Positions 37,492 through 53,407 of a DNA stretch of 64,000 nt are shown here, one piece after another. The position numbers and the translations under genes are program-made. Within the stretch, counting starts at the first letter, position 1, and every line of letters starts with the position of its first letter. The DNA lies in the NCBI RefSeq assembly GCF_028714215.1, contig NZ_JAQTMS010000003.1, forward strand, positions 62,001-126,000, in the 5' to 3' direction. The notes below the pieces were generated by a model. It did not search any database. It was not told where the DNA came from and worked only from the letters and a program-made list of their open reading frames with translations. The DNA comes from Rhodoferax sp. (GTDB lineage: Bacteria; Pseudomonadota; Gammaproteobacteria; Burkholderiales; Burkholderiaceae_C).

Positions 37492-37872
37492 TCACGAAAG
37501 CAACTGATCTCTCTGAACCGGCGCCGCCGAGGGTTGCAACACCGGTTGCGTCTGCTGCAAAGCCTCCAGGCGTTCGATGCGCGCGCTCAACGCCTGCGCC
37601 TGCGGATTTTCCGCTGCCAGCTTGGGATTCAGGTAGGGGCTGCTGGACCACCAGTCAATCCCCATTTCGCGCGCCTTGTCGACCGAACAGATCAGAAGAC
37701 GGATCTGGATCGTCAGCAACTCGATATCGACGATCTTGACCTTGATGTCGCCGGCGATCACCAGGCCTTTGTCCAGGATGCGTTCCAGAACATCCGCCAG
37801 CGTCGCGGAACTGGTGCCATGCGTGATGCTCCTGGGCCTGTTTGGCGGTGTCGCCAATTGCGGGGTATTCAT
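37492..37872 (-). CDS. gvpJ: Gas vesicle protein GvpJ (GvpA family with C-terminal extension)
   Basis: A 126-residue GvpA-family protein. The core TLADVLERILDKGLVIAGDIKVKIVDIELLTIQIRLLICSVDKAREMGIDWW matches the GvpA fold, and the GIDWW end with a Pro/Gln/Ala-rich extension is typical of GvpJ or GvpM. Such minor shell proteins are thought to nucleate the vesicle tip. It is the last recognisable gvp gene of the structural unit, 59 bases after gvpK. Confidence 0.88.
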   Translation of the reverse strand: MNTPQLATPPNRPRSITHGTSSATLADVLERILDKGLVIAGDIKVKIVDIELLTIQIRLLICSVDKAREMGIDWWSSSPYLNPKLAAENPQAQALSARIERLEALQQTQPVLQPSAAPVQRDQLLS

Positions 37873-37931
37873 GTCTTTCTATCCTGTTGCGTCAGCAGCT
37901 CGGGGGACGCCCGGTCTGTCTGTTGGCGTTG

Positions 37932-38258
37932 TTACAGCAATTTGCCCAGCGGGCCGAGATCCAGATTCAGATCTTTGTCCGTCAAGCCGAATTCTTTTTT
38001 TAACCAGACCATTTGCTTGTCCAATTCAAGAAAAGTCAAACCCAGGCGTTCGATCTCGTCTTCCGTCAGCGAACCCCCTTCGATGCGCCTGATCGCCTGC
38101 TTTTCCAGCAACTGCCGGACCAGTTCCACCAGTGTCAGGACCAGTTGCCCCAGACCGTTCTTGACAGTCTCCGGATCGAGCGCGATGCGGGGCGACGGAT
38201 TGGCTTTTTCGGCACTTTTGTTCTCCTCGGGAAAGAGAAACACCTGGGCTGTGTTCAT
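37932..38258 (-). CDS. gvpK: Gas vesicle protein GvpK
   Basis: A 108-residue protein with the GvpK core (IALDPETVKNGLGQLVLTLVELVRQLLEKQAIRRIEGGSLTEDEIERLGLTFLELDKQM). GvpK is one of the minor proteins needed for gas vesicle formation in most clusters. AGGAGG precedes the ATG, which overlaps the stop of the upstream GvpA-family gene (ATGA). Confidence 0.95.
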   Translation of the reverse strand: MNTAQVFLFPEENKSAEKANPSPRIALDPETVKNGLGQLVLTLVELVRQLLEKQAIRRIEGGSLTEDEIERLGLTFLELDKQMVWLKKEFGLTDKDLNLDLGPLGKLL

Positions 38259-38449
38259 GCGACCTCCTGCATCAATTTGCGCTGCACAATCGCCGTCTCA
38301 ACCGAGGTCAGGAGCAGGTTCAAATTCAAATAGATCAGATCCACACCAGCCACCGAGATCACAATTTCGCCCATCGCCACCACGCCCGTGTTGAGCACCC
38401 GGTCCAGCAGCTCGCACAAGGAAGAGTTCTTCTCCACAGCCAATCCCAT
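38255..38449 (-). CDS. Small GvpA-family protein, GvpS/GvpM type
   Basis: A 64-residue protein of the GvpA family: LCELLDRVLNTGVVAMGEIVISVAGVDLIYLNLNLLLTSVETA. The SVAGVDLIYL core is the pattern seen in GvpS, a minor vesicle protein. I start at the ATG at 38449 because GGGAG stands 7 bases before it; a TTG at 38476 overlapping the upstream TPR gene stop is an alternative. It overlaps gvpK by ATGA. Confidence 0.85.
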   Translation of the reverse strand: MGLAVEKNSSLCELLDRVLNTGVVAMGEIVISVAGVDLIYLNLNLLLTSVETAIVQRKLMQEVA

Positions 38450-38472
38450 CACGCAGCTCCCGCGTCCATCGG

Positions 38473-39012
38473 TCAATCTTCCTGGTCCAGCAAGCGCTCG
38501 TACATGCTGCGCGCCATGTGCTGGTTGCCGGCGCGCTCATGGCCTTCGGCCAGTGCCAACAACTCGGCCTTCGCCGCGTCTGCCTGAGGCGTCCCCGCAT
38601 GATCTTCCACCAGCGTCCAGAGCAACTCGGTCGCCTCCCGCTGCTTGCCCTCCTTGCGGTAATGTTGCGCCATGGTGAAAAGGTGCTCCAGCAGCGGTTG
38701 GCTGGCAGCGGCGCTGGCAAGGCCTTCGGCCAACGCCGCCAACTCCGCCCTTGCCGTGTCCGCCTGAGGGGTCTCGGAACGTTCTTCCACAAGCGTCCAG
38801 AACAGTTCCTTGGCGCGCTGGATATTCCCCTCCTTGCGGTGTCGTTGCGCTATGGCGAGAAGCCGCTCCAGCAGTTCCCGGCTCATCTCGCAACTGATCT
38901 CCTTTTCCGCGGCGCAAACAGCAGCGCTGCCGGGTGCAGCGCCGGCCTCGGGAGCCAGATTCACTGACTCCGCCAGCGCTTCGTCTTTGTCAAATTCCAC
39001 TGCATTCGTCAT
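38473..39012 (-). CDS. TPR-repeat protein of the gas vesicle cluster
   Basis: A 179-residue soluble protein. After an acidic N-terminus come two near-identical TPR-like repeats of about 49 residues: LLERLLAIAQRHRKEGNIQRAKELFWTLVEE and LLEHLFTMAQHYRKEGKQREATELLWTLVED, each followed by a PQAD[TA]A[RK]AEL helix. A third partial repeat closes the protein. I do not recognise a named gvp family. The place between the ArsA-like gene and the gvpS-like gene suggests a scaffold or chaperone adaptor. GGAGAAA precedes the ATG. Confidence 0.75.
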   Translation of the reverse strand: MTNAVEFDKDEALAESVNLAPEAGAAPGSAAVCAAEKEISCEMSRELLERLLAIAQRHRKEGNIQRAKELFWTLVEERSETPQADTARAELAALAEGLASAAASQPLLEHLFTMAQHYRKEGKQREATELLWTLVEDHAGTPQADAAKAELLALAEGHERAGNQHMARSMYERLLDQED

Positions 39013-39024
39013 GACATTTCTCCG

Positions 39025-40986
39025 TTATGTTGCATAGAGGGCGCGGCCGAGTACGCGCAGCCGCTCGAACCCGCGTGGCTCGTCCTGTCGAAACACCAGC
39101 GCCAGGTGCCGATCCGCGCATGTCGTCCGATAGCGCTCCAGCAGCGGCTGCTGGGCGCGGCGCAAGGCCGAGCAGATGGGGCAGGAAGAGGGTGGCGTCA
39201 GCAGGTTGACAAACAGGATAGGCACCGCCACCCCAAGTCGTTGACAGGCGGCCAGCAGATCGAGCGTCTCGGCATATGCCATCTCGGTAGGAATGGTCAC
39301 CGCCAGCAACGCCGCCTGCCTGGCGTCGACCAGCAGGCGCCGAAACAGCTTCAATTTTTTGGATAGATCAACCATCAACTCACAGATCCTGGGCAACCAG
39401 AAGACGTCCCGGTATTTCAGGAATAGAGCAAAGAAAGTCTTGAGCCATTTTTCGATCAGTTCGGGCATTTCCAGAAAACGCAGCAGGTGCCCGGTCGGTG
39501 CAGTATCCAGCACAAAACAGTCATACCGCTTGCGATCCATCAAGTCCACGATGCGGGCCAGAGACAGCATTTCGTCCAGACCCGGCGGAGCCACGTCCAG
39601 CATCCGCTCCATGACTTCCCGGTCGAACGCGAAATCGGTTCCGGCCTGTTCCGTGCCGCGACCGAAGACCGCGCTGATCTCGGTCGCGTAGTCCCGTTTC
39701 AGGCGCTCATACTCGGCCTGGGCGTCCAACTCGATCACGCTCAGTCCGGGCGCGACCCGGGTTTCCTGTGCGCCAATCTCGCAACCCAGACAAGCGGCCA
39801 GCGAATGGGCCGGGTCGATGGAAAAAAGCAGTATCTCCTTGCCGCGTCGCTCCTGTGCCAGCCGCAACGCCGAGGCGCAGGCCAGGGTGGTCTTGCCGAC
39901 GCCGCCCTTGCCGGCGAACAAAATGAGCTTCATCGAAGCTGCCGGCAAGGGTGCCGGATGGCTTACCGGTGAGTGCCCCGTGATGACGTTGTTGAACCCG
40001 CCGCCGGGCACCACCGCGGCAAGCGGCCAGTCATCAGCTTGCGCCAGGGGCCGAGCCTGCTCCCACAGGCTCAACAAGCGCTCTGCTCCCCGCACCTCGT
40101 CAAGCAACAGGGGCAGCCCCCAGAAGGCGTATTTTGAAAACACCTGCGTGAGTTCCTTCAGCTCAAGCCTCTGCCTTGACGCCCATTCAGCGCAGACCGG
40201 GCAGCCGGATGGTTGCGACAGCAAGCCGTTGACGACGACCTCGCGCACCGGCAAGCCAAGCCGCTCCAACTCGCGCAGCATCACCTGTGTCACATGGATG
40301 CTCAAGGTCTCGGCCAGCATCACCGGCACGAAGCGACACCGCTTGGGCGAACGCAGCAGCGTCCACAAATTCTTCAGGTCAGCCAGGGTCTGTTCCAGAT
40401 AAAGATCGACAGCCTCTTTGCAGTAGGCGCCGCGGTACAGCCGCGCCATATACCGGTACTTGGCCAGCATCGCGTCCAGCGCCGCAACCCAGCGGCGCAT
40501 CAGTGCCGGAAGCCCCAGGAGCTTGAGCGTATGCCCGGCCGGCGCCGTGTCCACCACGATACAGGCGTAGCGCTGCTGCTTCACCCAAGCCATGATTTCC
40601 AGCAAAGCCATCATCTCGTCCAGACCCGGTATCGACAGGTCCAGAAACCGGGCCACATCGGACGGGTCCAAAAAAGTACCGCGCAGGGCAATCGTGCGAA
40701 GGTGTTCCTGATGCTGCGTCTTGAAGCGTTGCAGGCTCTGCTGTGGGTCAATTTCACATAAGGCCAGATTCTTCGGCGCTGCCGAGCCGGCAAAACAATC
40801 CAACAGCGAATGAGCCGGGTCAGTGGAGACCAACAGGAAGGAAGCGGCCGGATGCCGACGCGCCAAATCCAGGGCGGCGGCAGAGGCGCAAGTTGTCTTG
40901 CCAACCCCTCCCTTGCCGCCAAAAAGCAGCAGACGAAGCCCGTCTTCCCGCAAAAATCCCGGAACGGCGGCTGGTTCCACGATCAC
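39025..40986 (-). CDS. Double ArsA/Get3-type ATPase of the gas vesicle cluster
   Basis: A 653-residue protein made of two ArsA/Get3 domains. The first P-loop is GGKGGVGKT at residues 23-31, the second GKGGVGKT near residue 355. Each half has a switch Asp motif (STDPAHSLLDC, SIDPAHSLAAC), a VVDTAPAGHTL or VLDTAPTGHLL motif, and a CPVC or CPIC pair as in the Get3 zinc site. It lacks the Cys triad position I would expect of an arsenite pump and no ars gene is nearby. A tail-anchored or hydrophobic-protein chaperone role for GvpA-type proteins is plausible. It starts with GTG overlapping the gvpG stop. Confidence 0.85.
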   Translation of the reverse strand: MIVEPAAVPGFLREDGLRLLLFGGKGGVGKTTCASAAALDLARRHPAASFLLVSTDPAHSLLDCFAGSAAPKNLALCEIDPQQSLQRFKTQHQEHLRTIALRGTFLDPSDVARFLDLSIPGLDEMMALLEIMAWVKQQRYACIVVDTAPAGHTLKLLGLPALMRRWVAALDAMLAKYRYMARLYRGAYCKEAVDLYLEQTLADLKNLWTLLRSPKRCRFVPVMLAETLSIHVTQVMLRELERLGLPVREVVVNGLLSQPSGCPVCAEWASRQRLELKELTQVFSKYAFWGLPLLLDEVRGAERLLSLWEQARPLAQADDWPLAAVVPGGGFNNVITGHSPVSHPAPLPAASMKLILFAGKGGVGKTTLACASALRLAQERRGKEILLFSIDPAHSLAACLGCEIGAQETRVAPGLSVIELDAQAEYERLKRDYATEISAVFGRGTEQAGTDFAFDREVMERMLDVAPPGLDEMLSLARIVDLMDRKRYDCFVLDTAPTGHLLRFLEMPELIEKWLKTFFALFLKYRDVFWLPRICELMVDLSKKLKLFRRLLVDARQAALLAVTIPTEMAYAETLDLLAACQRLGVAVPILFVNLLTPPSSCPICSALRRAQQPLLERYRTTCADRHLALVFRQDEPRGFERLRVLGRALYAT

Positions 40987-41369
40987 ACCCTGGCAGCAAC
41001 GTTCGGCAAGAAACTGGCGACCAGCGTTTCTTCTTCCTGTTCTTCTTCGTCCTCAAACTCTTCTTCGTCCTCTTCTTCTTCCTCGTCCTCTTCTTCCTCT
41101 TCTTCCTGGTCCTCTTCATCGCCTTCTTCACCCTCTTCGGCCAGCCCCTCCTCCCGGTCCCGGATGGCGTCCAGGCGGTCGAGCAGCTGCGCCTCGGCGG
41201 TCTCGAACTCCTGTTCCGTGATCGCTCCGGTATCGAGCTTCATGTAAAGCTCGCTGAGCGAACGGGTCACGGCCTCGGCCTCTCCGGCCTGCTCCTTCTG
41301 CACCGCATCGTTGATTTCCCTGAAAATCCACAGCAACGGCGAGATCAGCAGATTGTCGAGAATCAACAT
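40983..41369 (-). CDS. gvpG: Gas vesicle protein GvpG with a poly-acidic tail
   Basis: A 128-residue protein. The first 80 or so residues are the GvpG family (NLLISPLLWIFREINDAVQKEQ, LSELYMKLDTGAITEQEFE, EAQLLDRLDAIRD). The last part is almost entirely Glu and Asp (about residues 80-120). It starts at the ATG at 41369, 10 bases after the gvpF stop. GvpG is a minor assembly protein. The acidic tail is much longer than I would expect in the family. Confidence 0.9.
   Translation of the reverse strand: MLILDNLLISPLLWIFREINDAVQKEQAGEAEAVTRSLSELYMKLDTGAITEQEFETAEAQLLDRLDAIRDREEGLAEEGEEGDEEDQEEEEEEDEEEEEDEEEFEDEEEQEEETLVASFLPNVAARV
41027..41145. repeat. Pyrimidine-rich CTT/CTC tract in gvpG
   Basis: The plus strand here is nearly all C and T in CTT/CTC/TCT triplets, encoding the Glu/Asp run of GvpG on the minus strand. 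Triplet slippage would keep the frame and vary the tail length. Confidence 0.8.
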
Positions 41370-41379
41370 GGGGCAATCC

Positions 41380-42141
41380 TCAAGCCTGCAACGCAACACT
41401 GACGAAGTGGTGCGGCGCCCAAGGACCGTTGAAATCAAAGGAAAAATTGTTGTCAAAACGATTGGCCGCGTCGAAAACACCGTCCTCGAAAGCCTTCTGG
41501 GCACCGCGCTCCACCAGACAGGCCAGGTGCATCACTTCCTTCTCTTCGCGCGACGGATTCTGTTTGACGTCGACGCAGCGCGGACCCAGCACTTCCATCA
41601 CGGTCTCGGCGTGCTGCTCGCGGTCCTGCGTCAACAGGTGATCGAACAGGCGTCCCATTTCGATCTTGTCATTCTGTGAGGGTCCGTGCTGTTTTCCAAG
41701 CATGGCATCGCGCAACTCCGCCAGATCCGGGTGATGGGTCACCATGTACTCAAAAATGTTCGGCACATCGAGGACGACACGCAGCCCCAACTCGACTTTG
41801 CCGCGCACCTTGTCCAACTGCTCGACAAAAGTGCTGCCGTTCTGTTTCAGGATATTGAGCAGCGCCTTGTTGCTGGCGGCAATGGTGCCGAACGCCACCG
41901 GCAGCACCGTCGTCTCTTCCATCAGTCGCTTGATGACGACGTTATGCGCCGCCAGATTCTTGCGCTCGGGCCGAATGCGTTTTTCAGTGATGTCGCTGAC
42001 CACCGCGGCCAGGGGACCCTGGGATATCACATAGACTGGCGCGCCGTTGATTCCGATGTTCCCGTAGACAGGATGCGATTCAACTGCGTCGGCAATCGCG
42101 TACAGGTAGTGACCGGGCTCCAGCCGGGTTTCAATGCTCAT
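41380..42141 (-). CDS. gvpF: Gas vesicle protein GvpF/GvpL (copy 1)
   Basis: A 253-residue GvpF/L protein. Landmarks are GHYLYAIADA at the start, LAAVVSDI, LAAHNVVIKRLMEETTVLPVAFGTIA, and the C-terminal NFSFDFNGPWAPHHFV that matches the family ending GPWPPYNFV. GvpF and GvpL are minor structural or assembly proteins that bind GvpA. The start overlaps the stop of the small upstream gene by ATGA. A second copy lies at 47629-48468. Confidence 0.93.
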   Translation of the reverse strand: MSIETRLEPGHYLYAIADAVESHPVYGNIGINGAPVYVISQGPLAAVVSDITEKRIRPERKNLAAHNVVIKRLMEETTVLPVAFGTIAASNKALLNILKQNGSTFVEQLDKVRGKVELGLRVVLDVPNIFEYMVTHHPDLAELRDAMLGKQHGPSQNDKIEMGRLFDHLLTQDREQHAETVMEVLGPRCVDVKQNPSREEKEVMHLACLVERGAQKAFEDGVFDAANRFDNNFSFDFNGPWAPHHFVSVALQA

Positions 42142-42380
42142 GTTTTCACCCCATTGCGAATCCTGCCGGAACTCAGGGTCTTGATATCGCGGACGGTCGC
42201 CACGCGACCGCGCGGGGCCAACCCATACCCGGCCGGAACAGGGTCTTGCCGCAACCGCCGCCAGGTCATGATCTCGCGTCGGCGCCGGTACGCCAGGCCG
42301 CGTTGGTCGCGTCCCGGCACGAGCCGGAAGGCGGCGCTACTCAAGGAAGATGCCAGGCATGAGGATGTTCGGATATTCAT
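42138..42380 (-). CDS. Small orphan gene between gvpV-like and gvpF
   Basis: An 80-residue basic protein that I do not recognise. It has many Arg residues and no membrane segment. GGAG stands about 9 bases before the ATG and the stop overlaps the gvpF start by ATGA. These signals suggest a real translated gene rather than a shadow, possibly needed for coupling gvpF translation. Confidence 0.5.
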   Translation of the reverse strand: MNIRTSSCLASSLSSAAFRLVPGRDQRGLAYRRRREIMTWRRLRQDPVPAGYGLAPRGRVATVRDIKTLSSGRIRNGVKT

Positions 42381-42448
42381 TGCATCACACTCCCAAATTG
42401 ACGAGCAGTAAAACGGCTTGGTTACGGCCGACTTGGGGCCAGCCTATT

Positions 42449-42781: not shown

Positions 42782-42791
42782 GGTTTTCCCC

Positions 42792-43802
42792 TTAGCCGAT
42801 TTCTGCCACAAGATTGACGGCGCTGCCGGCGCGGCGCGAGTCGCTGGCGGCCTTCTTGTCGCCCGCAACCGGAACCAGCGCCGGTAGCGGCGGGCAGCAG
42901 CGCGCAATGATTTCATCCAGGCGTTCCAGCCCTGCAACCTGCCCATCGTGCGTTACCTTGAGGCAATCGGCGTTCAGCACGTCATGGCACAGTTGCCGGA
43001 ACGTCGGGTCGCTGGCGGCCACCGTGCCTTTGCGGTTGGCCACGATGCGCCCCAGCATGATGCAGGCACGGATGGTGGGACGGCCGTTGTTGACGCCCAA
43101 CTTGCGGAACTCGCGCACGATGTCGACAATCGATTTCGACTGCCGCCACGGCAGGCCCGACTTGGCCTGCGTGATGGCCACCTCGGTCTCATAGTCGTGG
43201 TGCCCCACTTTGATCGTGATCATGCGGTCCATCAGCGCGTCCTGGGTCTTGTGTACCCCTGCGTACTCCTCCGGATTGCTGGTGAAGATGGCGCTGAAGT
43301 GGGGGTGCACCTGGAGATAGCCATCGCCACTGCGCGCATCCGGGAGTTCCAGCAAGCGCTCCTCCAGAATCGACAGCAGCACGTTGTTGGCTTCGGGGCG
43401 TGAGCGCGTGAACTCGTCGTAGATCAGAGTGAAGCCGTATTTGCAGGCCGTGGTCAGGCGGTTGTCGCCCCATTGCTTGGAGACACTCTCCTCCTGTTTC
43501 AGCACCGAGTGAATGTAGTTGTCGACCACCTTGGTGGAGCGATAACCGGTTTGGCCTCCGATCAGATCGGAACTACCGAATTCGTCGTCCCCATGGATCA
43601 GGATCACCTGGCGGCCCAGTTGCGCCGCCACGTGCATGGCCAGAGCGGTCTTGCCAGTGCCGGCTGGTCCGCTGAAATGAATCGGATAACCGGCCCCTAT
43701 GTAGTCAAGCGCCCGCCCGGCGACGCCCTGGATATAAGGCGTCTCGACAAAATTGGCCTTCTTCTCCAACGTCAGCACTGTCAGCTCTTCAGCTTCGTTC
43801 AT
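42792..43802 (-). CDS. gvpN: Gas vesicle AAA ATPase GvpN
   Basis: A 336-residue MoxR-type AAA ATPase. The Walker A motif GPAGTGKT lies at residues 45-52 and Walker B is in GFTLIYDEFTR; SNPEEYAGVHKTQDALMDRM is the sensor part typical of GvpN. In cyanobacteria and haloarchaea it enhances vesicle widening and binds GvpC and GvpA. I start at the ATG at 43802, which has GAGGAG 8 bases upstream; a GTG at 43811 is an alternative. The C-terminus is Ala/Lys/Arg-rich. Confidence 0.95.
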   Translation of the reverse strand: MNEAEELTVLTLEKKANFVETPYIQGVAGRALDYIGAGYPIHFSGPAGTGKTALAMHVAAQLGRQVILIHGDDEFGSSDLIGGQTGYRSTKVVDNYIHSVLKQEESVSKQWGDNRLTTACKYGFTLIYDEFTRSRPEANNVLLSILEERLLELPDARSGDGYLQVHPHFSAIFTSNPEEYAGVHKTQDALMDRMITIKVGHHDYETEVAITQAKSGLPWRQSKSIVDIVREFRKLGVNNGRPTIRACIMLGRIVANRKGTVAASDPTFRQLCHDVLNADCLKVTHDGQVAGLERLDEIIARCCPPLPALVPVAGDKKAASDSRRAGSAVNLVAEIG

Positions 43803-43887
43803 CGCACCCACTCCTCATGTTGGTTAACACCGATAGCGGCCGGTCGCGCGCCCTGGCTGCCACGCCAAGCCCGGCTCAACTCGCGCC

Positions 43888-45111: not shown

Positions 45112-45198
45112 TTCAATTCACTCCTCTTAGGCTGGGCAGCTTGCTGACTGCTTGCTGATTGGATTCAATTCGTTGGACCTTGTTTTAGAGGCACATGC

Positions 45199-45233
45199 TT
45201 TCCCTGCCGGGGGGCGAACCTCCCGGCAAGGAA
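45199..45233 (-). terminator. Large stem-loop after gvpA
   Basis: TTTCCCTGCCGGG pairs with CCCGGCAAGGAAAA across a short loop, 18 bases downstream of the gvpA stop. No T-run follows on the minus strand, so it is more likely a partial terminator or an RNA-stabilising hairpin that raises gvpA message above the downstream genes. Confidence 0.6.
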
Positions 45234-45470: not shown

Positions 45471-45538
45471 TTCAAACTCCTAACGTATGTCACCCCTGTT
45501 AAACGCTTTCCAGACACGAAGTACGGGGTTAAACCCTT

Positions 45539-45555
45539 CGTTACAGGATGTAACG
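45539..45555. promoter_or_regulatory. 17-base palindrome at the gvpA start region
   Basis: CGTTACA-GGA-TGTAACG is a perfect inverted repeat with a 3-base centre. It covers roughly -12 to +4 relative to the start expected from the sigma-54 promoter. It is a good candidate for a repressor site. Confidence 0.45.
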
Positions 45556-45569
45556 CATTGACCGTGCCA
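45555..45569 (-). promoter_or_regulatory. Sigma-54 (-24/-12) promoter of gvpA
   Basis: On the minus strand TGGCACGGTCAATGC matches the sigma-54 consensus TGGCACG-N4-TTGC at all key positions, with GG at -24 and GC at -12 and correct spacing. Transcription would begin near 45543, giving a leader of about 73 bases. The NtrC-type activator encoded at 51258-52808 and the NtrB-type kinase at 46112-47632 are the likely regulators. Confidence 0.75.
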
Positions 45570-45710
45570 AGTGCCGGCATCCGGTGCCAACCAAGCCGTT
45601 TCACTGACAGATATCAAACGAATGAAAAGATCACTGATGGAATACCCAGGTTGGTCAGTCCAAGGGCTGCGCCGACCGTCCAAGCAGAGGCAAATTGACC
45701 ATGGAGCGCA

Positions 45711-45726
45711 CGCCATAGCTATGGCG
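45711..45726. promoter_or_regulatory. 16-base perfect palindrome, possible activator site
   Basis: CGCCATAGCTATGGCG lies just after the receiver gene stop and about 175 bases upstream of the predicted gvpA start. This distance is usual for an enhancer of an NtrC-type activator. It could instead act as a hairpin ending the upstream operon, though no T-run follows. Confidence 0.4.
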
Positions 45727-45728
45727 CC

Positions 45729-46112
45729 TCATACCGAAGATAAGACGGCATGGATCGCGTTCATGATGTCGTCATGACGAAACGGTTTCGTGACAAAGTC
45801 CGAGATCAGGCCCGTTCTCAAGCTTTGCTGCACCACGCTATCGTCCTTGTAGAAATAGCCGGAGACGAGAATCATCGGCGCGCTGCTGGAGGTTTCACCC
45901 TGAATCCGCCGGGCCAGTTCCACGCCTTCGATATCTCCCAGCTTGGCATCCAGCAGGATCAGGTCACAGGCGTGCGAGCGCAGCCAGCGCAGTGCCGCGT
46001 CGCCGCTGTCTGCGGTGGCGACGGCAAAGCCGTTTTTTTTCAAAATCATTTCCAGAGCCCAACGTACGTCGGGTTCGTCATCGACCACCAGGACCGTGCG
46101 GTGCTTGACCAT
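45729..46112 (-). CDS. Single-domain receiver protein (GvrC-like position)
   Basis: A 127-residue receiver domain without an output domain. It shows VLVVDDEPDVRWALEMIL, LILLDAKLGDIEGVEL with the phospho-acceptor Asp, MILVSGYFYKDDS and FVTKPFRHDDIM. The real start is the ATG at 46112, overlapping the kinase stop by one base; upstream frame is a shadow of the kinase. It may take phosphate from, or compete for, the kinase at 46112-47632. The Serratia cluster ends in a similar kinase/receiver set as I recall it. Confidence 0.85.
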   Translation of the reverse strand: MVKHRTVLVVDDEPDVRWALEMILKKNGFAVATADSGDAALRWLRSHACDLILLDAKLGDIEGVELARRIQGETSSSAPMILVSGYFYKDDSVVQQSLRTGLISDFVTKPFRHDDIMNAIHAVLSSV

Positions 46113-47632
46113 CAGGCAGCCTGCGCAACCGGCAGGCGCACAGCAAACGTGGTGCCCTGTCCCTCGATGCTGTTCTCCACCGCGATGCTGCCCCCATGCT
46201 GCTTCACAATCGTGTGGCAAATCGAGAGCCCCAAACCGGTACCCTTGCCGACCGGCCGGGTGGTGAAGAAGGGGTCGAATATCCGGCTCAAGTGGGCCGG
46301 CGAAATCCCGCATCCGGTATCGGACACTTGCACCAACGCCGCGTCACCATCGCGCCAGGTGGCCACGCTGACGTCGCCGCCACCCAGCATCGCCTGATAG
46401 GCGTTCAAAACCAGATTCATGATCACTTGCTGCAGCAGGTTGGCATTGCCGGAAATCGGCAGCACGGGCTCTGCATAGCGCTCCACCAAATTGATCTTCT
46501 GCAGCTTCGCTTGCGGCGTCAGCACGCTGAGCGTCTCGCGCACCAGGGCGACCAGATTCAGCGCTTCTTTTTGACTGCTGGACGAGGGCCGCGCGAAGCG
46601 CAGCAGATTCTCGATGATCATGGATGAGCGCTCTATGCCTTCGATGATCTTGCGCACGCACTCCTGCTGAAACACCGGATCATCGGGCGGCTCCAGAAGG
46701 AATTGCGCCGCGGAGAAGCTGACCGACAGCGGATTGCGCAACTCGTGCGCAATGCCACCAGCCATCACCCCCAAGGCGGCCAGTTTTTCGCTCTGGTAGA
46801 GGTGTTGCTCCAGCGCCCGCCGCTCGGACAGATCGCGGCCCACCGCCACGACGCCGCTGACCTTGCCGGAGTCGTCGCGGATCGGCGAGAACGACCAGTC
46901 CACCGGTATCGATGCCCCCGAGCTGGCCATCAGGTTCAACTCCCGGAACTCCACCACGTCGCCACCGACCAGTTGCCGGATGATCGCCGCCATGTCCTTG
47001 CGCTGGCTGGTTTCGCACAGTTCGGCCAGCAACTGTCCCTGCACCTCGCCGATCCGATAGCCCGAGATGCGTTCGGCCGCCGGGTTCCAGCTGGTGATGC
47101 AGCCCTCGGGGTCGGTCGAGATCACCAGATCATTGGCGCTTTCAACCACGCTGGCCAGGTGGCGCTCCGCCATCCTGACCTTGGCACTCAGTTGCAACTT
47201 CTCGGTGATATCGTCCATCACCAGCATTGCGTGTTCCACCGCGGCACCGGTCTTGATCGGAATCACGGTGTAGAAATAGCTGCGGATCGGCACACCGGGT
47301 GCCCGGTAGGTCATCTGGGCGCCAGGCAGCGGCAAACCGATGTTGAAGACACTTCGAATCTTGGCTTCCAGCTGCGTGAACTCGAGGATCGCATCCGGAA
47401 AGACCTGACGGATCTGCCGCCCTATGGTGTTTTCCTCGGTCCGCCTGGCCTTCTCAATGAAGTTGCGGTTCGCCGAGACCACGCGCAGGGCAGGATCGAT
47501 CAGGATCAGGGAAAACGGGATATTCCCCAGCAGCATGTGGTAAAGCTTTTCATACCAGGCTTCGCTGGAAGCGGTGGTCGCGGAGCGGATGCCGCTGCTT
47601 GCCGAAAAGCCGGCGCTGTTGGACTTCTTCAT
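46112..47632 (-). CDS. Soluble NtrB-type PAS sensor histidine kinase (GvrB-like)
   Basis: A 506-residue kinase without membrane segments. Two PAS domains (near residues 35-150, NIPFSLILIDPALRVVSANRNF, and 160-280, ESANDLVISTDPEGCITSWNPAAERISGY) are followed by HisKA with AGGIAHELRNPLSVSFSAAQFL and HATPase with DTGCGISPAHLSRIFDPFFTTR and [13 protein letters not shown]. This is the NtrB class that phosphorylates NtrC-type activators. It overlaps the gvpF/L gene upstream by ATGA and the receiver gene downstream, so it belongs to the regulatory unit. Confidence 0.9.
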   Translation of the reverse strand: MKKSNSAGFSASSGIRSATTASSEAWYEKLYHMLLGNIPFSLILIDPALRVVSANRNFIEKARRTEENTIGRQIRQVFPDAILEFTQLEAKIRSVFNIGLPLPGAQMTYRAPGVPIRSYFYTVIPIKTGAAVEHAMLVMDDITEKLQLSAKVRMAERHLASVVESANDLVISTDPEGCITSWNPAAERISGYRIGEVQGQLLAELCETSQRKDMAAIIRQLVGGDVVEFRELNLMASSGASIPVDWSFSPIRDDSGKVSGVVAVGRDLSERRALEQHLYQSEKLAALGVMAGGIAHELRNPLSVSFSAAQFLLEPPDDPVFQQECVRKIIEGIERSSMIIENLLRFARPSSSSQKEALNLVALVRETLSVLTPQAKLQKINLVERYAEPVLPISGNANLLQQVIMNLVLNAYQAMLGGGDVSVATWRDGDAALVQVSDTGCGISPAHLSRIFDPFFTTRPVGKGTGLGLSICHTIVKQHGGSIAVENSIEGQGTTFAVRLPVAQAA

Positions 47633-48468
47633 GCCCGGGTTTCAGACAGATTCGGACAAAAATTGTAGGGTGGCCAGGGACCCCGTAGTTCGAGGTTCAG
47701 GCCGATCACCTGGTAGGCCTCTTGCTGGTCCGCCAGTGCGCAGCGGAAATCGGGCAGCATCTCGGGCGTCAACAAAAAGCTGCCGTTGAAGACCATGCGC
47801 TCGGCGCGTCCGGTGACGGCGCTGGCATGCAGCCGCAACGGGCTGGCGTCCAGCGCGTGCAAAGCCAGTGCCTGCTGCAAGTCCTGGCTGACCCGCGCCA
47901 CCCCCGACTCCAGCGCCGCTTCGATCCGGGCATCCAGTTGCTTCTGCTGCAGGTAGCGGACTCCCGGCGAGGACGCCAGCGCGGCGCGGCGCGACTGCAC
48001 CTCGGGATCTTCGGCCGCAATGATGCGACGGGCATCTTCTTCGACCAGGTAGCCCTTGACACTCCACTCGCTCTTGTCGCGCAGCTGGTCCAGTGCCGAT
48101 TCAATGTTCTTCTGATGCTGCCGCAGGAAGTCCCGCAAGCTGTCCCGGGAACGGTAGAGGGTGCCGAATTTGACCGGCAGCACCGGCGACGCCGCCATGA
48201 TCCGTGCCACCACCGCCTCATGCCGGGTGGCCCGCTCACCGATCCAGGACAGGGTCTGCAGATTCTGCTCGGAAAAATCGGCGATGACCACCTTCCCGGT
48301 CACTGCCACCACATTGGCCTCGCACAGCGCCGACACCTGGTAACGCTCATCGACGCCCAGCAATCCCTCATCCGCCAGCAGACCGACCGCGGACAGGCAC
48401 TCGGGTCGAGCCAGGCAGTAGAGGTAAACGCCGAGTTCCGGTACGGCTTCAGGCGGCAGATCGGTCAT
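47629..48468 (-). CDS. Gas vesicle protein GvpF/GvpL (copy 2)
   Basis: A 279-residue GvpF/L protein: ELGVYLYCLARPE at the start, RHEAVVARIMAASPVLPVKFGTLYRSRDSLRDFLRQH, and the family ending LNLELRGPWPPYNFCP. I start at the ATG at 48468, just after the AAA ATPase stop; a TTG at 48474 is an alternative. It lies in the upstream regulatory/assembly unit, separate from copy 1, and is clearly diverged from it. Confidence 0.9.
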   Translation of the reverse strand: MTDLPPEAVPELGVYLYCLARPECLSAVGLLADEGLLGVDERYQVSALCEANVVAVTGKVVIADFSEQNLQTLSWIGERATRHEAVVARIMAASPVLPVKFGTLYRSRDSLRDFLRQHQKNIESALDQLRDKSEWSVKGYLVEEDARRIIAAEDPEVQSRRAALASSPGVRYLQQKQLDARIEAALESGVARVSQDLQQALALHALDASPLRLHASAVTGRAERMVFNGSFLLTPEMLPDFRCALADQQEAYQVIGLNLELRGPWPPYNFCPNLSETRA

Positions 48469-48470
48469 GA

Positions 48471-50618
48471 TCAAAATTCTTTCAAGGCCGCATCGAAGTG
48501 CCGCGCCTGGATCTGCAACGGGGAAGACTTGGCCGATTTGGCGCCGGCACCCTGGCTCTGTCCAATCCGCTCGCGGATGGCGTTCAAGGCGGCGCGGTTG
48601 CAGATGGCACCCAGGTCGGCACCGGTCAGCCCCACCGTGCCAAGCGCCAGCGCCTTCAGGTCAACCCCCTTGGCGACCGGCTTGCCACGCACCTGCACCT
48701 GCAGAATCGCCAGCCGCTGCGGTTCGTCCGGCAGGCCAATCTCTATCGTCACGTCAAAGCGTCCGGGGCGTCGCAAGGCCGGGTCCACCATGTCCGGCCG
48801 GTTGGTGGCCGCCAGCACCAGCACCCCGGCCAGTTTCTCGACACCGTCGAGTTCGGCCAGAAACTGCCCCACCACGCGCTCGCTGACACCGGAGTCCGAC
48901 GCCCCGCTGCCGCGCCGTGGCACCAGGGCGTCAACCTCATCAAAAAATACCAGGCACGGTGCGGCCTGCTTGGCCTTTTGAAAGACCTCCCGGACGGCGC
49001 GCTCGGACTCCCCAACGTACTTGGACATCAAGGCTGGTCCCTTGACCGAAATGAAGTTGACCTGGGTCGCGCTGGCCGCCGCCTGCGCCAGCAGCGTCTT
49101 GCCGCAACCCGGCGGGCCGCACAGCAGCACGCCCTTGAGCGGCTTGATACCGACGGCCTGAAACAGATCGGCGTGCTGCAGCGGCCATTCCAGCAGTTCG
49201 CGCAGCAGGCGCTTGGCGTCCTCCAGCCCGCCCACATCGTCCCAACCGGTATTGGGCACCTCGACAAAAACCTCGCGCAGTGCCGACGGTTCCACGTCAC
49301 GCAGGGCGGCCAGAAAATCGTCCTTGCACAGTTCGAGCTTCTGCAAGGACTCATAGGGCAAAGAGGCCTGGGCGAAGTCGATCTCCGGCAAGATGCGCCG
49401 CACGCAAATCATGGCCGCTTCGCGACAAAGTGCTTCCAGATCGGCACCGACAAAGCCATGGGTGATGTCGGCCAGGCCGGGCAGGTCCACATCGTCGGCC
49501 ACCGGCATGCCGCGGGTGTAGATTTCAAGAATGGCCAAACGGCCATGGCGGTCCGGAATCGGAATCCCGATCTCGCGATCAAAACGCCCGGGCCGGCGCA
49601 AGGCCGGATCAATGGCGTTGGGAATGTTGGTGGCGGCTATGACCACCACCTGTCCGCGTGCCTTGAGGCCGTCCATCAGGCTCAACAGCTGCGCCACGAC
49701 GCGGCGCTCGACCTGATGTTCACCCCCCAGACCTTCCCGCTTGGGCGCGATGGAGTCGATCTCATCGATGAAAATGATGCTGGGTGCCTGCTTGGTCGCA
49801 TCGTCGAACAGCTTGCGCAAGTAGCCCTCCGATTCGCCGTAGAACTTCTGCATGATCTCCGGGCCGCTGATGGAGAAGAAGTGCACGTCGGTCTCATGCG
49901 CGACGGCACGCGCAATCAGCGTCTTGCCGCAGCCGGGCGGGCCGTACAGCAGCACCCCCTTGGGCGCGTCGATGCCGAGCCGGACAAACACCTCCGGAAA
50001 GCGCAAGGGCAGTTCGATGATCTCGCGCACGCGCTGCACTTCGCGCTTGAGTCCGCCAATGTCCTCGTACGACAGCGTGCCTCGCCCGGTCGGGCTGGCC
50101 TTGGCTTCGGTCTGCGCCGGACCGACCGACAACAAGGTTTCCGGGGCGATCAGGACCGGTCCCTTGGGCTTGGTCTCGCGCACCAGGAAGTCCAGCGAGC
50201 GACTGCCAAACAAGGTGCCGCGTATGCGGTCCCCCTCCAGCACCGGCAAGCCGTCCAGCCGGGCTCCGATGTATTCCAGATCGCGGTCCGACAGACCCGC
50301 CGCGGTGGGCGACAGAACAATGCGCTGCGCCGCCTGGGCCTTCACTTTTTGAATCGCCACGGCATCGTCGAGCGCCACCCCCGCGTTGCCGCGCGACAAG
50401 CCGTCGAGCTGCACTCTGGCGCCGCCCCGGTCATCCTTGTAGGCCGGCATCAGCTTGCAAACGGTGCGCCGCTTGCCGACGATCTCGACGATGTCGCCAA
50501 TCTCCAGTCCCAGCGCCTGGATATCGCTGGGGTCCAGTCGTGCCAGTGCGCGCCCAACGTCCTTGCTCAAGGCCTCGCTGACCTTGAAGCGCGGACCGGT
50601 GTCTTCTGCTTTTTTCAT
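48471..50618 (-). CDS. CDC48/VAT-type double AAA ATPase
   Basis: A 715-residue protein of the CDC48 family, which is typical of archaea and eukaryotes. The N-domain is a double-psi barrel (RLDPSDIQALGLEIGDIVEI). D1 has Walker A GPPGCGKT at 226-233 and Walker B IIFIDEID at 281-288; D2 has GPPGCGKT at 501-508 and LVFFDEVD near 556, with arginine-finger LRRPGRFD in both. Such unfoldases occur in some gas vesicle loci. It may disassemble or remodel vesicle proteins. It overlaps the gvpH stop by ATGA. Confidence 0.92.
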   Translation of the reverse strand: MKKAEDTGPRFKVSEALSKDVGRALARLDPSDIQALGLEIGDIVEIVGKRRTVCKLMPAYKDDRGGARVQLDGLSRGNAGVALDDAVAIQKVKAQAAQRIVLSPTAAGLSDRDLEYIGARLDGLPVLEGDRIRGTLFGSRSLDFLVRETKPKGPVLIAPETLLSVGPAQTEAKASPTGRGTLSYEDIGGLKREVQRVREIIELPLRFPEVFVRLGIDAPKGVLLYGPPGCGKTLIARAVAHETDVHFFSISGPEIMQKFYGESEGYLRKLFDDATKQAPSIIFIDEIDSIAPKREGLGGEHQVERRVVAQLLSLMDGLKARGQVVVIAATNIPNAIDPALRRPGRFDREIGIPIPDRHGRLAILEIYTRGMPVADDVDLPGLADITHGFVGADLEALCREAAMICVRRILPEIDFAQASLPYESLQKLELCKDDFLAALRDVEPSALREVFVEVPNTGWDDVGGLEDAKRLLRELLEWPLQHADLFQAVGIKPLKGVLLCGPPGCGKTLLAQAAASATQVNFISVKGPALMSKYVGESERAVREVFQKAKQAAPCLVFFDEVDALVPRRGSGASDSGVSERVVGQFLAELDGVEKLAGVLVLAATNRPDMVDPALRRPGRFDVTIEIGLPDEPQRLAILQVQVRGKPVAKGVDLKALALGTVGLTGADLGAICNRAALNAIRERIGQSQGAGAKSAKSSPLQIQARHFDAALKEF

Positions 50619-51226
50619 GACCCTTTCCTTTTTCCTTTCTTGCTCAGCGCAATTTCAAGGATGCCGTTGCGACAATGAAAACTCAGCTTGTCGGGGGTGA
50701 AACTGGCCGGCAGCAGCATCTCTTTGCGGTAGTTGGGTTGCCCCATTTCAGTCGTGATGAGCAGGATGTCGTCGTGCACCTCGACTTTCACATTGGCTTC
50801 CTCGGTCCCCGGCACCTCGGCGATGATCAGCAAGCGCCCCGGCTCGTCAAACAGATCGACCATCGGCTCGCGGATCTCGCGCACCGCCACCAGCTTGCCT
50901 TCCTCGTTCTGGCGCACGTTTCCGAACGGCTCGACCCTGGGGCTCTTGTCCCCGATACCGGATTTGACCGTGAAGCCATAGACGCCCTTGGCCTGCTGGC
51001 CCGACCCGAACTTGAACTCGCCACCCTTGCTGACGCTGCCGCCGGACTGCTGCGCCTCCTGCGCGAGCTTGCCCAACTGCTCGATCAGGTTGCCCATGCC
51101 GGCGAGAAAACCGCCACCCGAAGACTCGGATTTGCCCTTGCCGAAGGCCTCCCCCAGGCGACGCCCGATTTCATCGAGGCGCTCCTTGCCGGGTGCAAAT
51201 TCATCTGAACGTTTTCTGTCAACCAT
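50615..51226 (-). CDS. gvpH: Hsp20-like gas vesicle protein GvpH
   Basis: A 203-residue protein. The N-terminal half is charged with a Gly/Ser stretch; the C-terminal half is an alpha-crystallin-like fold (PMVDLFDEPGRLLIIAEVPGTEEANVKVEVHDDILLITTE, then the LPASFTPDKLSFHCRNGILEIALSK end). GvpH proteins act as small chaperones in gas vesicle loci. I start at the ATG at 51226, which has AGAGGTAAG upstream. The stop overlaps the AAA ATPase start by ATGA. Confidence 0.88.
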   Translation of the reverse strand: MVDRKRSDEFAPGKERLDEIGRRLGEAFGKGKSESSGGGFLAGMGNLIEQLGKLAQEAQQSGGSVSKGGEFKFGSGQQAKGVYGFTVKSGIGDKSPRVEPFGNVRQNEEGKLVAVREIREPMVDLFDEPGRLLIIAEVPGTEEANVKVEVHDDILLITTEMGQPNYRKEMLLPASFTPDKLSFHCRNGILEIALSKKGKRKGS

Positions 51227-51257
51227 GTTCTTACCTCTTTGATGTAAACCAGCCTGA

Positions 51258-52808
51258 TCAATGCCGAAGCGCCGCTTCATCTTTCTGAAGTTTGTAGTCG
51301 TCCTTCATGAAATGAATGGAGGAAATCTCATACGTTTTGAGTTTGGTATGGATCGTTTTGTAATCCAGGTGCAGCATCCGTGCCGCCTGCGCCTTGTTAC
51401 CGTGGGTCAGTGCCAGCGCCCGCAAAAGAATCGCACGCTCCACTTGAGTCGTAATCTGCCCGATCAAGTCCTTCAAGGGAAAATCAACCCCCAAGGTCAT
51501 GAACTCCTCTGGCGCACACAGCGGGCAAGCCTGGTGCTCACTTGTTTCAAAATGCGCCTGTGTCAGTCGCTCCGGCAGCCGCGGCAGCTGTGGACAAACA
51601 CGTTGGTCAAGCATGCCCAGCAGTTCCGGCGCAATCAAGCCATCGGTGCTGTCGCACAGCAAGACGGCGCGGCGCAACTGGTTGCGCAACTCGCGCGCGT
51701 TGCCGGGCCAGTCGTAGCGCTGCAAGATGCCCCAGGCATGGCCTGACAAGCCTTTCACCTGCTTGTCCAACTCGGCGTTGGTCTGGGTCAAAAATCGATG
51801 CACCAGAAACACCAGGTCTTCCTTGCGTTCCCGCAATGCCGTCAGATGAATCGTGTACTCGGCCAGCCGGTGGTACAGGTCGCCGCGAAAGGTGTGCCGC
51901 TCCACCATCGCCAACAGGTCGGCATTGGTCGCCGCCACCACCCGGAAATCGACTTTTTGTTCCTTGCTGCTGCCGATGCGGTGAATTCGCCGCGTCTCCA
52001 GCACCCGCAGCAGCTTGCCCTGCATCGCCAATGGCAGGTTGCCGATCTCGTCCAGAAAAATGGTGCCGCCCTCGGCCAGTTCAAAAGCCCCCGCTTTAGC
52101 CTGATGGGCTCCCGTGAAAGCGCCTTTTTCGTGACCAAACAATTCACTCTCGATCAGCGACTCCGATATGGCGCCGCAATCGACCGCCACCAGCGGCTTG
52201 GCGCAGCGCTTGCTTCGGGCGTGAATGGCTTGCGACACCAATTCCTTTCCGGTGCCGGACTCACCCGTGATCAGGACCGAGAAATTGGTCCGGGCAACCC
52301 GTTCCACCTCGCGCTGGATGCCTTGAATGGCGGCGCTGTTTCCCATCGAATTCACCAGCGAATCGGCTTGGCGCGGAGGGTCCAGGATTTGCCGAACCTG
52401 GAGCTTGGCTCTTCTTTCCTCCAGGGCGTAGCGAACGGTACTCAGCACGTCCTCGTTCTTGAACGGTTTGGTCAGGTAATCCCAGGCCCCGGCCCGAACG
52501 GCGCGCACCGCGTCATGGGTGTTGCCGTTGCCGGTGACCATGATGACAGGTGTCGTTTTGTAGTCGGTCTTGATCTTTGTCAGCACCTCAAAACCATCCA
52601 GGTCGGGCAAACCGATATCCAGCAGCACCACGTCGGGCACCTCCTTGCCGATAGCGACCAGTGCTTCTTCGCCGTTCGCCGCCAACAACGGTGCAAACCC
52701 GGCCTGTCGCATGAGATTGGACAAGACCCAGCGTGCATCCTCCTGGTCGTCCACCACCAGCACCTTGGCCAGGGCCGAAGGTGCGCCAGCGATCTTGCCA
52801 ACTGTCAT
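51258..52808 (-). CDS. NtrC-type sigma-54 response regulator (GvrA-like)
   Basis: A 516-residue activator. The receiver has Asp64 in VVLLDIGLPDLDG; the AAA domain shows GESGTGKE, the sigma-54 contact loop GAFTGA within GHEKGAFTGAHQ, and LDEIGNLP; the C-terminus is a Fis-type helix-turn-helix (KAQAARMLHLDYKTIHTKL). It should activate the sigma-54 promoter found upstream of gvpA after phosphorylation by the NtrB-type kinase. A CPLC motif lies in the linker before the Fis domain. It overlaps the upstream gene by ATGA. Confidence 0.93.
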   Translation of the reverse strand: MTVGKIAGAPSALAKVLVVDDQEDARWVLSNLMRQAGFAPLLAANGEEALVAIGKEVPDVVLLDIGLPDLDGFEVLTKIKTDYKTTPVIMVTGNGNTHDAVRAVRAGAWDYLTKPFKNEDVLSTVRYALEERRAKLQVRQILDPPRQADSLVNSMGNSAAIQGIQREVERVARTNFSVLITGESGTGKELVSQAIHARSKRCAKPLVAVDCGAISESLIESELFGHEKGAFTGAHQAKAGAFELAEGGTIFLDEIGNLPLAMQGKLLRVLETRRIHRIGSSKEQKVDFRVVAATNADLLAMVERHTFRGDLYHRLAEYTIHLTALRERKEDLVFLVHRFLTQTNAELDKQVKGLSGHAWGILQRYDWPGNARELRNQLRRAVLLCDSTDGLIAPELLGMLDQRVCPQLPRLPERLTQAHFETSEHQACPLCAPEEFMTLGVDFPLKDLIGQITTQVERAILLRALALTHGNKAQAARMLHLDYKTIHTKLKTYEISSIHFMKDDYKLQKDEAALRH

Positions 52809-53407
52809 TGCGTCTTTCCCTGTTTTTTTCTGAGCGACGGGAGCAATTGGCGGACCAGGATGTCGGCGTCAAGCAGTGCCTCAACGGAATGGGCCAAGCC
52901 CAGAAACAGCAAACCGATCTCGCCAGCGCGCAGCGTCGCGTTGACCCGATTGGCGATAAACCGATCACGCTTCCAGAGCAGCTTGCGGCTTTGCTCTTCA
53001 CGCTGGTGCTGGTACTCGGGATCAGCGTGGCGCGCGGCAGCCTGATGGAATTGGTACTCCTGCAGCAGCAGCCCGGCATCTTCGGTGCCCATCAACTGGG
53101 CGCCCTGCGCCATCAATTCCAGCAGCAAGCGGTGATTCTTGCTCCCCTGTGCGGCAACGTCCTTGACAATGTCCTCTTCTCTGGCGCAAACGGGCAAGCC
53201 GTCCTGGTACAGGCGCACCGTTGCATAGGGCAACTCCAGAGACTTGATCATTTGCTGGATTCCGAACCAGACATCGTCAATCGACTTGAGATGCTCAACC
53301 CACTTGTCATGGCCAAACCGGCTGATGTAAGCCTGCTTGGTCTGCTCAAGCAGCGACCCCATATCCTGTTCGGTATGGACAATCGGGATCACAACCAGCG
53401 TTCGCAT
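52805..53407 (-). CDS. Conserved protein of unknown function in the gas vesicle regulatory unit
   Basis: A 200-residue soluble protein beginning MRTLVVIPIVHTEQDMGSL. It has RLYQDGLPVC and GSKNHRLLLELMAQGAQLMGTED blocks that look conserved, and a basic C-terminal helical part. I recognise the pattern from unnamed bacterial and archaeal proteins but know no function. It is the first gene of the regulatory unit, joined to the NtrC-type gene by ATGA, and lies where gvpY-type genes do in other loci. Confidence 0.7.
   Translation of the reverse strand: MRTLVVIPIVHTEQDMGSLLEQTKQAYISRFGHDKWVEHLKSIDDVWFGIQQMIKSLELPYATVRLYQDGLPVCAREEDIVKDVAAQGSKNHRLLLELMAQGAQLMGTEDAGLLLQEYQFHQAAARHADPEYQHQREEQSRKLLWKRDRFIANRVNATLRAGEIGLLFLGLAHSVEALLDADILVRQLLPSLRKKQGKTQ

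Follow-up and report, generated by a model that had tools for sequence, protein, structure and literature searches.

A gas vesicle gene cluster with its own regulators in a Rhodoferax genome, and a conserved unnamed protein linked to it

Content and organization of the locus

The subject of this report is a gene cluster at positions 37492 to 53407 of a 64,000-nucleotide window of Rhodoferax sp. DNA (RefSeq assembly GCF_028714215.1, contig NZ_JAQTMS010000003.1, positions 62,001 to 126,000), which a preliminary description took for a complete gas vesicle locus with built-in two-component control. Judged by its gene families, the stretch is a genuine and full gas vesicle cluster of the Serratia sp. 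ATCC 39006 kind. Its main interest lies in orf200, a conserved protein for which we found no name or test, and, to a lesser degree, in the small gene orf80. Sequences and loci are referred to by L numbers and genomes by G numbers.

All 19 genes of the locus, orf80 included, lie on the minus strand. The upstream half reads orf200, gvrA-type, gvpH, CDC48-type, gvpF/L2, gvrB-type and gvrC-type, and the downstream half reads gvpA1, gvpC-like, gvpN, gvpV-like, orf80, gvpF/L1, gvpG, Get3/ArsA-type ATPase, TPR, gvpA2, gvpK and gvpJ. By this order there are two gene groups, one starting from gvpA1 and a regulatory one with gvrA, gvrB and gvrC. The genes originally listed (gvpA, J, K, N, G, H, an S-like gene, two gvpF/L copies and ATPase/chaperone genes) are each present with family matches above the Pfam or NCBIfam cut-offs, among them three PF00741 matches and the GvpK, GvpG, two GvpL_GvpF, Hsp20, ArsA-type ATPase and CDC48 domains above their Pfam cut-offs; the protein searches place the gvp-like genes in gas vesicle families. 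Pfam likewise bears out the NtrC-type activator (receiver, sigma54 activator and helix-turn-helix, HTH), the NtrB-type kinase (PAS-HisKA-HATPase) and the lone receiver. The common strand was also described correctly, but the statement that the genes are mostly joined by ATGA/GTGA overlaps was slightly generous: by their coordinates, 8 of the 18 junctions have 4-base overlaps of the ATGA/GTGA/TTGA type and another 2 overlap otherwise. The GvpC-like, GvpV-like, orf80, TPR and orf200 genes had not been named (Table 1).

The whole genome (5.16 Mb, 116 contigs) holds three PF00741 and two PF06386 matches, all inside the locus, and by these Pfam matches its contigs carry no GvpA-family or GvpF/L gene elsewhere. 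The G+C content of the locus (0.58-0.64 in 2-kb steps) is similar to that of the remainder of the window. GvpC consists of tandem repeats of about 33 residues, and the self-similarity of the GvpC-like protein at lags of 33, 40 and 73 residues exceeds that of all 300 shuffles; the protein has no Pfam match above cut-off, and its 20 homologues (261-407 aa) are unnamed or called "hypothetical". The GvpV-like assignment is by position and conservation in relatives. The GvpH-type protein also matches NF041800 (archaeal Hsp20), below cut-off.

Table 1. Genes and sequence elements of the gas vesicle locus, with positions in the window.
Feature	Position	Strand	Basis
orf200, conserved unnamed protein, 200 aa, first gene of regulatory operon	52805..53407	-	homologues, gvpN co-occurrence, predicted fold
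gvrA-type: receiver, sigma54-activating AAA, HTH_8 (Fis-type HTH)	51258..52808	-	Pfam
gvpH-type Hsp20 chaperone	50615..51280	-	PF00011 23.9 bits (cut-off 20.8)
CDC48-family AAA+ ATPase (gvpZ by position)	48471..50618	-	TIGR01243 870.2 bits (cut-off 802.65); CDC48_N
gvpF/L copy 2	47629..48474	-	PF06386 182.8 bits
gvrB-type PAS-HisKA-HATPase kinase	46112..47632	-	Pfam
gvrC-type lone receiver, 127 aa, start at 46112	45729..46112	-	PF00072
sigma54-type -24/-12 site TTGGCACG-N4-ATGCG	45554..45570	-	sequence; counterparts in relatives
conserved gvpA1 leader with CGAAG/CTTCG arms	45471..45553	-	alignment of 13 loci
gvpA1, shell protein, 72 aa	45252..45470	-	PF00741 63.4 bits
gvpC-like repeat protein, 407 aa	43888..45111	-	self-similarity, homologues, position
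gvpN, AAA+ ATPase	42792..43811	-	TIGR02640 352.8 bits (NCBIfam cut-off 266.8)
gvpV-like, 110 aa	42449..42781	-	position; kept in relatives
orf80, small basic protein (80 aa) overlapping gvpF1 by ATGA	42138..42380	-	open frame, codon-position differences
gvpF/L copy 1	41380..42141	-	PF06386 220.1 bits
gvpG with acidic C-terminal tail	40983..41369	-	PF05120 44.6 bits
tandem Get3/ArsA-type ATPase, 653 aa	39025..40986	-	PF02374 375.9 bits, 2 stretches
TPR protein, 179 aa	38473..39012	-	PF13428 28.9 bits (cut-off 23.5); relatives
gvpA2 (gvpS-type), minor GvpA-like protein	38255..38476	-	PF00741 56.5 bits
gvpK	37932..38258	-	PF05121 115.7 bits
gvpJ (gvpA3-type)	37492..37872	-	PF00741 59.9 bits

The unnamed genes orf200 and orf80

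The orf200 protein of the window itself matches no Pfam or NCBIfam family. A search returned 509 homologues at E≤0.001; the 120 listed are all without a Pfam domain and, where named, are called "hypothetical protein". Its distribution follows that of gvpN. Among 369 genomes of the class, orf200 occurs in four, exactly those with GvpN above the family cut-off, which was applied here (362 of the 369 match the GvpN AAA model at E≤0.001, nearly all of them weakly). Among 60 relatives it occurs in eight, every one of which is among the ten with gvpN; the other two, G385 and G386, are 82 and 86% complete and their gvpN contigs, of 8.1 and 6.9 kb, end before that end of the cluster. When the two samples are pooled, all 11 orf200 carriers fall within the 13 gvpN genomes of 427 (hypergeometric 4e-20, a value that ignores relatedness) and orf200 is found in 0 of the 414 gvpN-negative genomes.

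We also scanned genome contigs by gvpN alignment, which gave at least 575 related places, of which the best 80 were kept; their gene content was read by tblastn with the window proteins at thresholds of our choosing, and several loci end inside the cluster. For the 42 of these loci that are at least 15 kb long, orf200 is present in 38 of the genomes behind them, inside the stretch in 28 and elsewhere in the genome in 10. The lack of orf200 from 14 of the 42 stretches is therefore mostly an effect of stretch ends and not a true absence, as 10 of those 14 genomes carry it. It was not found in the genomes of L045, L055, L064 and L098, and in the L045 stretch gvpN is the sole gvp match. On plasmids, all four records with orf200 (Methylosinus, two Methylocella and Octadecabacter) also carry gvpN; on the Octadecabacter plasmid the two genes lie 25 kb apart, with transposases near orf200. 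The converse fails, as haloarchaea account for 18 of the 24 plasmids with gvpN, none of them among the four with orf200.

The same data bear on the idea that orf200 is a hitch-hiker with a general cellular role that merely happens to be frequent beside gvp genes. The list of 509 homologues comes without genomic context, and no orf200 was detected in 2 of the 13 gvpN genomes of the samples or in 4 of the 42 of the named set, which would fit such an idea. However, its absence from every gvpN-negative genome of the two samples makes this hardly credible. We conclude that orf200 is a conserved gas-vesicle-linked component, which in the genomes searched occurs only alongside the float genes.

In the window, orf200 overlaps gvrA by 4 bases, and it adjoins gvrA in 25 of the 30 named loci in which this could be tested, lying elsewhere in the locus in three and being absent from the stretch in two (3 further loci are too short to test). 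This overlap, together with the finding that the nearest solved fold is the haem-binding protein ChaN, would suit a role for orf200 as a partner protein that senses oxygen or haem for the GvrA/GvrB switch. The company it keeps makes this somewhat unlikely: of the 28 loci of at least 15 kb with orf200 in the stretch, CDC48 is present in 27 and Hsp20 in 26, whereas 14 are without a gvrB-type kinase and 5 without a gvrA match of at least 250 bits, leaving gvrA in 23 and the kinase in 14. Among those five, the gvrA-type gene is missing from the stretch in L046, L049 and L050, L114 matches more weakly (77 bits), and the L093 stretch stops directly behind orf200. As truncated loci drop orf200 and CDC48 at once, no weight is put on Fisher values for their co-occurrence. 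Gene order also speaks against a bond to gvrA, since in Methylosinus orf200 is flanked by gvpH and CDC48, with a 4-base overlap into CDC48. In L048-L050 it comes before Hsp20 and CDC48 with no adjoining gvrA match, and in L099 and L111 before CDC48; in G136 the order is gvpA1 to gvpJ, followed by orf200, gvrA, gvpH, CDC48, gvpF2 and the kinase.

The orf200 product looks like an enzyme of predicted TIKI-like fold that is dedicated to gas vesicles and may act on a gas vesicle or regulatory protein. Its predicted fold is alpha/beta, and the best structural matches are ChaN/TIKI proteins. In ungapped rows of the alignment, H11 (36/36), D69 (39/39) and E109, E117, R147 and H173 (42/42 each) are invariant. 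TIKI-type active sites consist of two His and two Glu with a nearby Arg (PMC6254334), and orf200 resembles the TIKI/TraB/ChaN proteins in its predicted fold, in two invariant His with Asp/Glu and Arg, and in a sub-threshold TraB profile match of some homologues at the C-terminal motif. Several points weigh against this assignment. No Foldseek match reached E≤0.001, and the TraB (PF01963) matches of the homologues are all below the Pfam cut-off, with none for the window's own protein: 14 of 42 orf200 members match at E≤10, the best with E 1.5e-4, or 22.1 bits against a gathering score of 26.8. Unlike the known proteins, orf200 has PxxH rather than GxxH as its first motif and no Glu two residues before H11. 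The orf200 profile found a single match in the PDB, unrelated, at E 0.91. As for the reaction, a hydrolase or peptidase that works with Hsp20 and the CDC48-type unfoldase to remove or mature misassembled GvpA is a model we regard as quite unlikely; if true, clusters of this type would carry a private quality-control machine for a floating organelle. A literature search found no paper pairing "gas vesicle" with "TraB" as whole words, and among the matches listed for gas vesicles with TIKI, EreA or ChaN nothing was relevant to orf200.

The orf80 protein likewise has no Pfam or NCBIfam match; its core reads RGLVYRxRREIMTxRRLRxDP. The gap between gvpV and gvpF1 measures 270-309 bp in 11 of the 12 relatives measured, the beta-type L044 being without a gap. 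The orf80 frame is open in all 12 gap-bearing sequences, counting the window (L036 and L128 encode the same protein), and differences per codon position are 0.384, 0.331 and 0.562, highest at the third. Control frames contain stops in 11 (+1) and 7 (+2) of the 12, and the reverse frames in 9, 9 and 12. The open frames, the third-position excess and the stops in the control frames together overturn the notion that orf80 is noise. Weaker profile matches were obtained in L043, L051, L052 and L136; the small gene at this position in Methylosinus gave no match to the orf80 profile.

Regulation and assembly

In Serratia, a sigma54 site precedes gvpA1, expression depends on GvrA, and gvrA, gvrB and gvrC are required for it (PMC4982088, PMC6617781). 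In the window a sigma54-type site, TTGGCACGGTCAATGCG, read from the sequence rather than scored against shuffles, lies 83 bp upstream of gvpA1. We scored the relatives against the sigma54 consensus, and the best match within 250 bp of gvpA1 had a shuffle p≤0.01 in 37 of 63 loci and p≤0.05 in 47 of 63 (17 of the 80 loci lacked gvpA1 or upstream DNA and went unscored; in L115, which was scored, the start is misplaced). Well-scoring sites lie mostly 55-90 bp from the gvpA1 ATG. TGGCA...TGC is invariant in 13 aligned beta-type sequences, which were trimmed to begin at the site. The phospho-acceptor D64 of the GvrA receiver is kept in 36 of 36 aligned sequences, and the GAFTGA loop is exact in 24 of the 36.

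Two further elements were observed in this part of the locus. Residues 428-431 of GvrA, which belong to the linker joining its AAA and HTH domains, form a CxxC motif, both Cys of which are found in 8 of 10 beta-type and 0 of 26 other aligned sequences; it might serve redox or metal sensing, and a role as oxygen sensor was set aside as the motif is too lineage-specific. The gvpA1 leader (45471-45570, minus strand) is strongly conserved in the 13 beta-type loci, reading ACGAAGG..CCCCGTACTTCG and then GGGG further on, and its CGAAG/CTTCG and CCCC/GGGG elements could form a pseudoknot-like fold. Three of the four pairs of the CGAAG/CTTCG helix never vary, and an upstream dyad, paired in 76.9% of cells, may span the transcription start, so the leader is not counted as a proven RNA structure. 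No Rfam element was found at E≤0.1 in window positions 31000-55000.

Each half of the tandem Get3/ArsA-type protein has a P-loop (GKGGVGKT) and a CxxC motif, CPVC and CPIC. Among 37 full-length relatives (split or partial copies being left out), two P-loops are present in 37, CxxC in the first half in 37 and CxxC in the second half in 34. A CxxC zinc motif is a feature of Get3, and ATPases of the Get3/TRC40 type bind hydrophobic helices of their client proteins. The closest PDB relatives are algal ArsA1 (1.9e-41) and Get3 (6e-41). A role in arsenic resistance was rejected, as the protein scores 168.7 bits against the arsenical pump ArsA equivalog TIGR04291, far under its cut-off of 650. Given the two P-loops, the CxxC in each half and the algal ArsA1/Get3 kinship, these features suggest a hydrophobic-client ATPase for GvpA. 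Among the loci of at least 15 kb, the ArsA-type gene (26) and the TPR gene (9) share one slot and occur together only in the beta-type L040 and L041; the window and six fetched congener loci carry both. For gas vesicles with CDC48 or GvpZ, nothing relevant was found among the literature matches listed.

With this gene set, we think it very probable that the locus encodes gas vesicles used for flotation and also their regulation. By analogy with the protein families and the Serratia 39006 work, the GvrB-type PAS kinase would phosphorylate the receivers of the GvrC-type protein and of NtrC-type GvrA, and GvrA would activate sigma54 RNA polymerase at the -24/-12 site and so turn on gvpA1 to gvpJ. 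GvpA1 would polymerise into the shell and the GvpC-like repeats would coat it; GvpA2, GvpJ, GvpF/L, GvpG and GvpK would assist shell start, and GvpN and GvpV bicone growth. Before assembly, the hydrophobic GvpA proteins are probably held and remodelled by Hsp20 and by the CDC48-type and tandem Get3-type ATPases, and orf200 may act on a gas vesicle or regulatory protein.

Three points count against this reading. The best sigma54-type match has p>0.05 in 16 of the 63 scored promoters; the host is known here from its assembly and genes alone, with no vesicle seen; and the whole genome has two gvpF/L copies, compared with three gvpF copies in Serratia, where F2 and F3 are listed among the essential genes. 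The last point raises the alternative that the locus is intact but yields no floating vesicles, with the missing third GvpF/L leading to aborted bicones or another hydrophobic shell. This is highly improbable. The four beta-type loci of at least 15 kb with the full cluster (L039, L040, L041 and L044) and L046 of Ectothiorhodospira also have two copies detected by BLAST, which a divergent third could escape, and the locus genes are conserved across congeners, with GvpA1 97-100% identical among the beta-type loci.

Genomic site, distribution and comparison with known systems

Within the genus, gvpN is present in 10 of 36 sampled genomes, compared with 0 of 24 others of the order. The acyltransferase region was recovered from 7 of the 26 gvpN-less congeners, of which G383 has a contig that ends too soon, leaving six. 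In these six, the acyltransferase gene lies next to a gene that Pfam assigns to radical-SAM/DUF3362, in divergent orientation, the distance between matches being about 80 bp in G380, 280 bp in G403, 580 bp in G400 and 1.5-3.2 kb in G378, G372 and G387. The gvp cluster lies between these two genes in the window, G374 and G395, and in G374 it fills the space on its own (about 16 kb). G396 and G398 carry the cluster at another place, and their acyltransferase site spans about 310 bp and 3 kb, respectively. Since gvpN occurs in only part of the genus, the flanks adjoin in cluster-less relatives and two congeners carry the cluster elsewhere, the cluster is accessory and at least two insertion sites are used.

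In the window, about 18 kb of minus-strand genes (19122-37491) for hybrid kinases, receiver-HD-GYP and PAS/GAF-HD-GYP proteins and a solute-binding protein lie between the radical-SAM gene and gvpJ; they are not there in G374. The HD-GYP proteins at 31812-37491 adjoin gvpJ and were considered as part of the system, but matches were found in only 2 of the 42 loci of at least 15 kb (L081 and L110) and the gvp cluster of G374 occupies this site without them, and they were rejected.

The same or a closely similar gene order was found, among the best 80 of at least 575 gvpN relatives, in records titled Beta- and Deltaproteobacteria, Acidobacteria, Planctomycetes, Rokubacteria, Verrucomicrobia and others. 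The 42 loci of at least 15 kb contain gvpN (42), gvpA1 and gvpJ (41 each), gvpF1 and gvpA2 (40 each), gvpK (39), gvpF2 (37), gvpG (36), CDC48 (35), gvpH (34), the response regulator (30), orf200 (28), gvrA (27), the ArsA-type gene and gvpV (26 each), the histidine kinase (22), TPR (9) and the gvpC-like gene (5). That the host, a lake bacterium, is a betaproteobacterium is borne out by two contigs of the congeners G402 and G386, which match exactly the records titled "MAG: uncultured beta proteobacterium" (L126 = L038, L127 = L036); other close matches are titled Oxalobacteraceae, Burkholderiales and Comamonadaceae, and L043 (86%) is titled Nitrospirae. Three side observations concern relatives. 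The Comamonadaceae contig L045 carries at 10001-10987 a gvpN-like gene (70% identical) that stands alone, the 10 kb on each side giving no further gvp match. The delta-type loci L055, L057, L063-L065, L080, L081 and L096 have two consecutive gvpA1-like copies, each 93-98% identical to the window GvpA1. A mobilizable Methylosinus plasmid (L192, NZ_AP022334.1) carries at 1-13259 gas vesicle genes in a cluster that also includes a sigma54 regulator, a kinase, a receiver and orf200, and is a possible route of transfer for such clusters.

With this locus a betaproteobacterial genus joins the known carriers of gas vesicle genes, and the cluster is seen to be an accessory unit with a defined place of insertion. 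Gas vesicles serve as acoustic reporters, and their assembly in other hosts may be affected by a conserved component such as orf200; the presence of Get3-type and CDC48-type ATPases in one cluster suggests how a shell protein of such high hydrophobicity may stay soluble.

Polaromonas, like the host, is a betaproteobacterium. Proteobacterial gvp clusters are described as two operons that vary in content; Psychromonas ingrahamii and Desulfomonile tiedjei have them in inverted order, and a Burkholderia has them divergent (PMC4982088); a review names Polaromonas vacuolata, with A1-A3, C, F1-F3, G, H, N, V, W, X and Z, and Rhodoferax antarcticus as gas vesicle producers (PMC11267810), and homologues of GvrA and GvrC are reported from Thiodictyon (PMC5944118). 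The proposal of a relative of the Serratia locus in another class is supported but not new, given the Burkholderia and Polaromonas cases. It was also rightly called rearranged, with the regulatory operon ahead of the gvpA operon, an arrangement also reported for Psychromonas ingrahamii and Desulfomonile (PMC4982088). Because two-operon clusters, the inverted order and the Burkholderia and Polaromonas cases have all been published, the locus is ordinary in kind.

The likeness to Serratia sp. ATCC 39006 is one of gene order and family, and Serratia is not among the best 80 of at least 575 gvpN relatives. Content, two-operon layout, gvrA/B/C-type regulators and the sigma54-type site fit the descriptions in PMC4982088 and PMC6617781: both loci have two operons, gvpA1/A2/A3, C, N, V, F, G, K, H and Z by name or position, NtrC-type GvrA, GvrB and GvrC, and a sigma54 site before gvpA1. 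Unlike in Serratia, the operon order is reversed, there are two rather than three gvpF/L genes, and a Get3-type ATPase and a TPR protein lie between gvpG and gvpA2. The window has orf200 and orf80; the Serratia cluster (gvpA1-gvpY and gvrA-gvrC) includes GvpW, GvpX and GvpY. Desulfocicer vacuolatum DSM 3385 (L058) has the same order, namely gvrA-H-CDC48-F2-(F3)-HK-RR-A1-N-V-F1-G-ArsA-A2-K-J; its genome (G431) has orf200, at coordinates that fit a position directly upstream of gvrA, just beyond the fetched stretch. It differs in an extra gvpF and in lacking any match to the TPR or gvpC-like protein. The presence of ArsA-type genes in gvp operons has been on record since 2010 (PMC2963123), where ArsA clusters 4 and 6 share with the window a two-domain ArsA-type ATPase in gvp operons together with Hsp20. 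The proposal made there is that ArsA homologues energise a biogenic step, to which the window adds a CxxC in each half and the kinship with algal ArsA1 and Get3.

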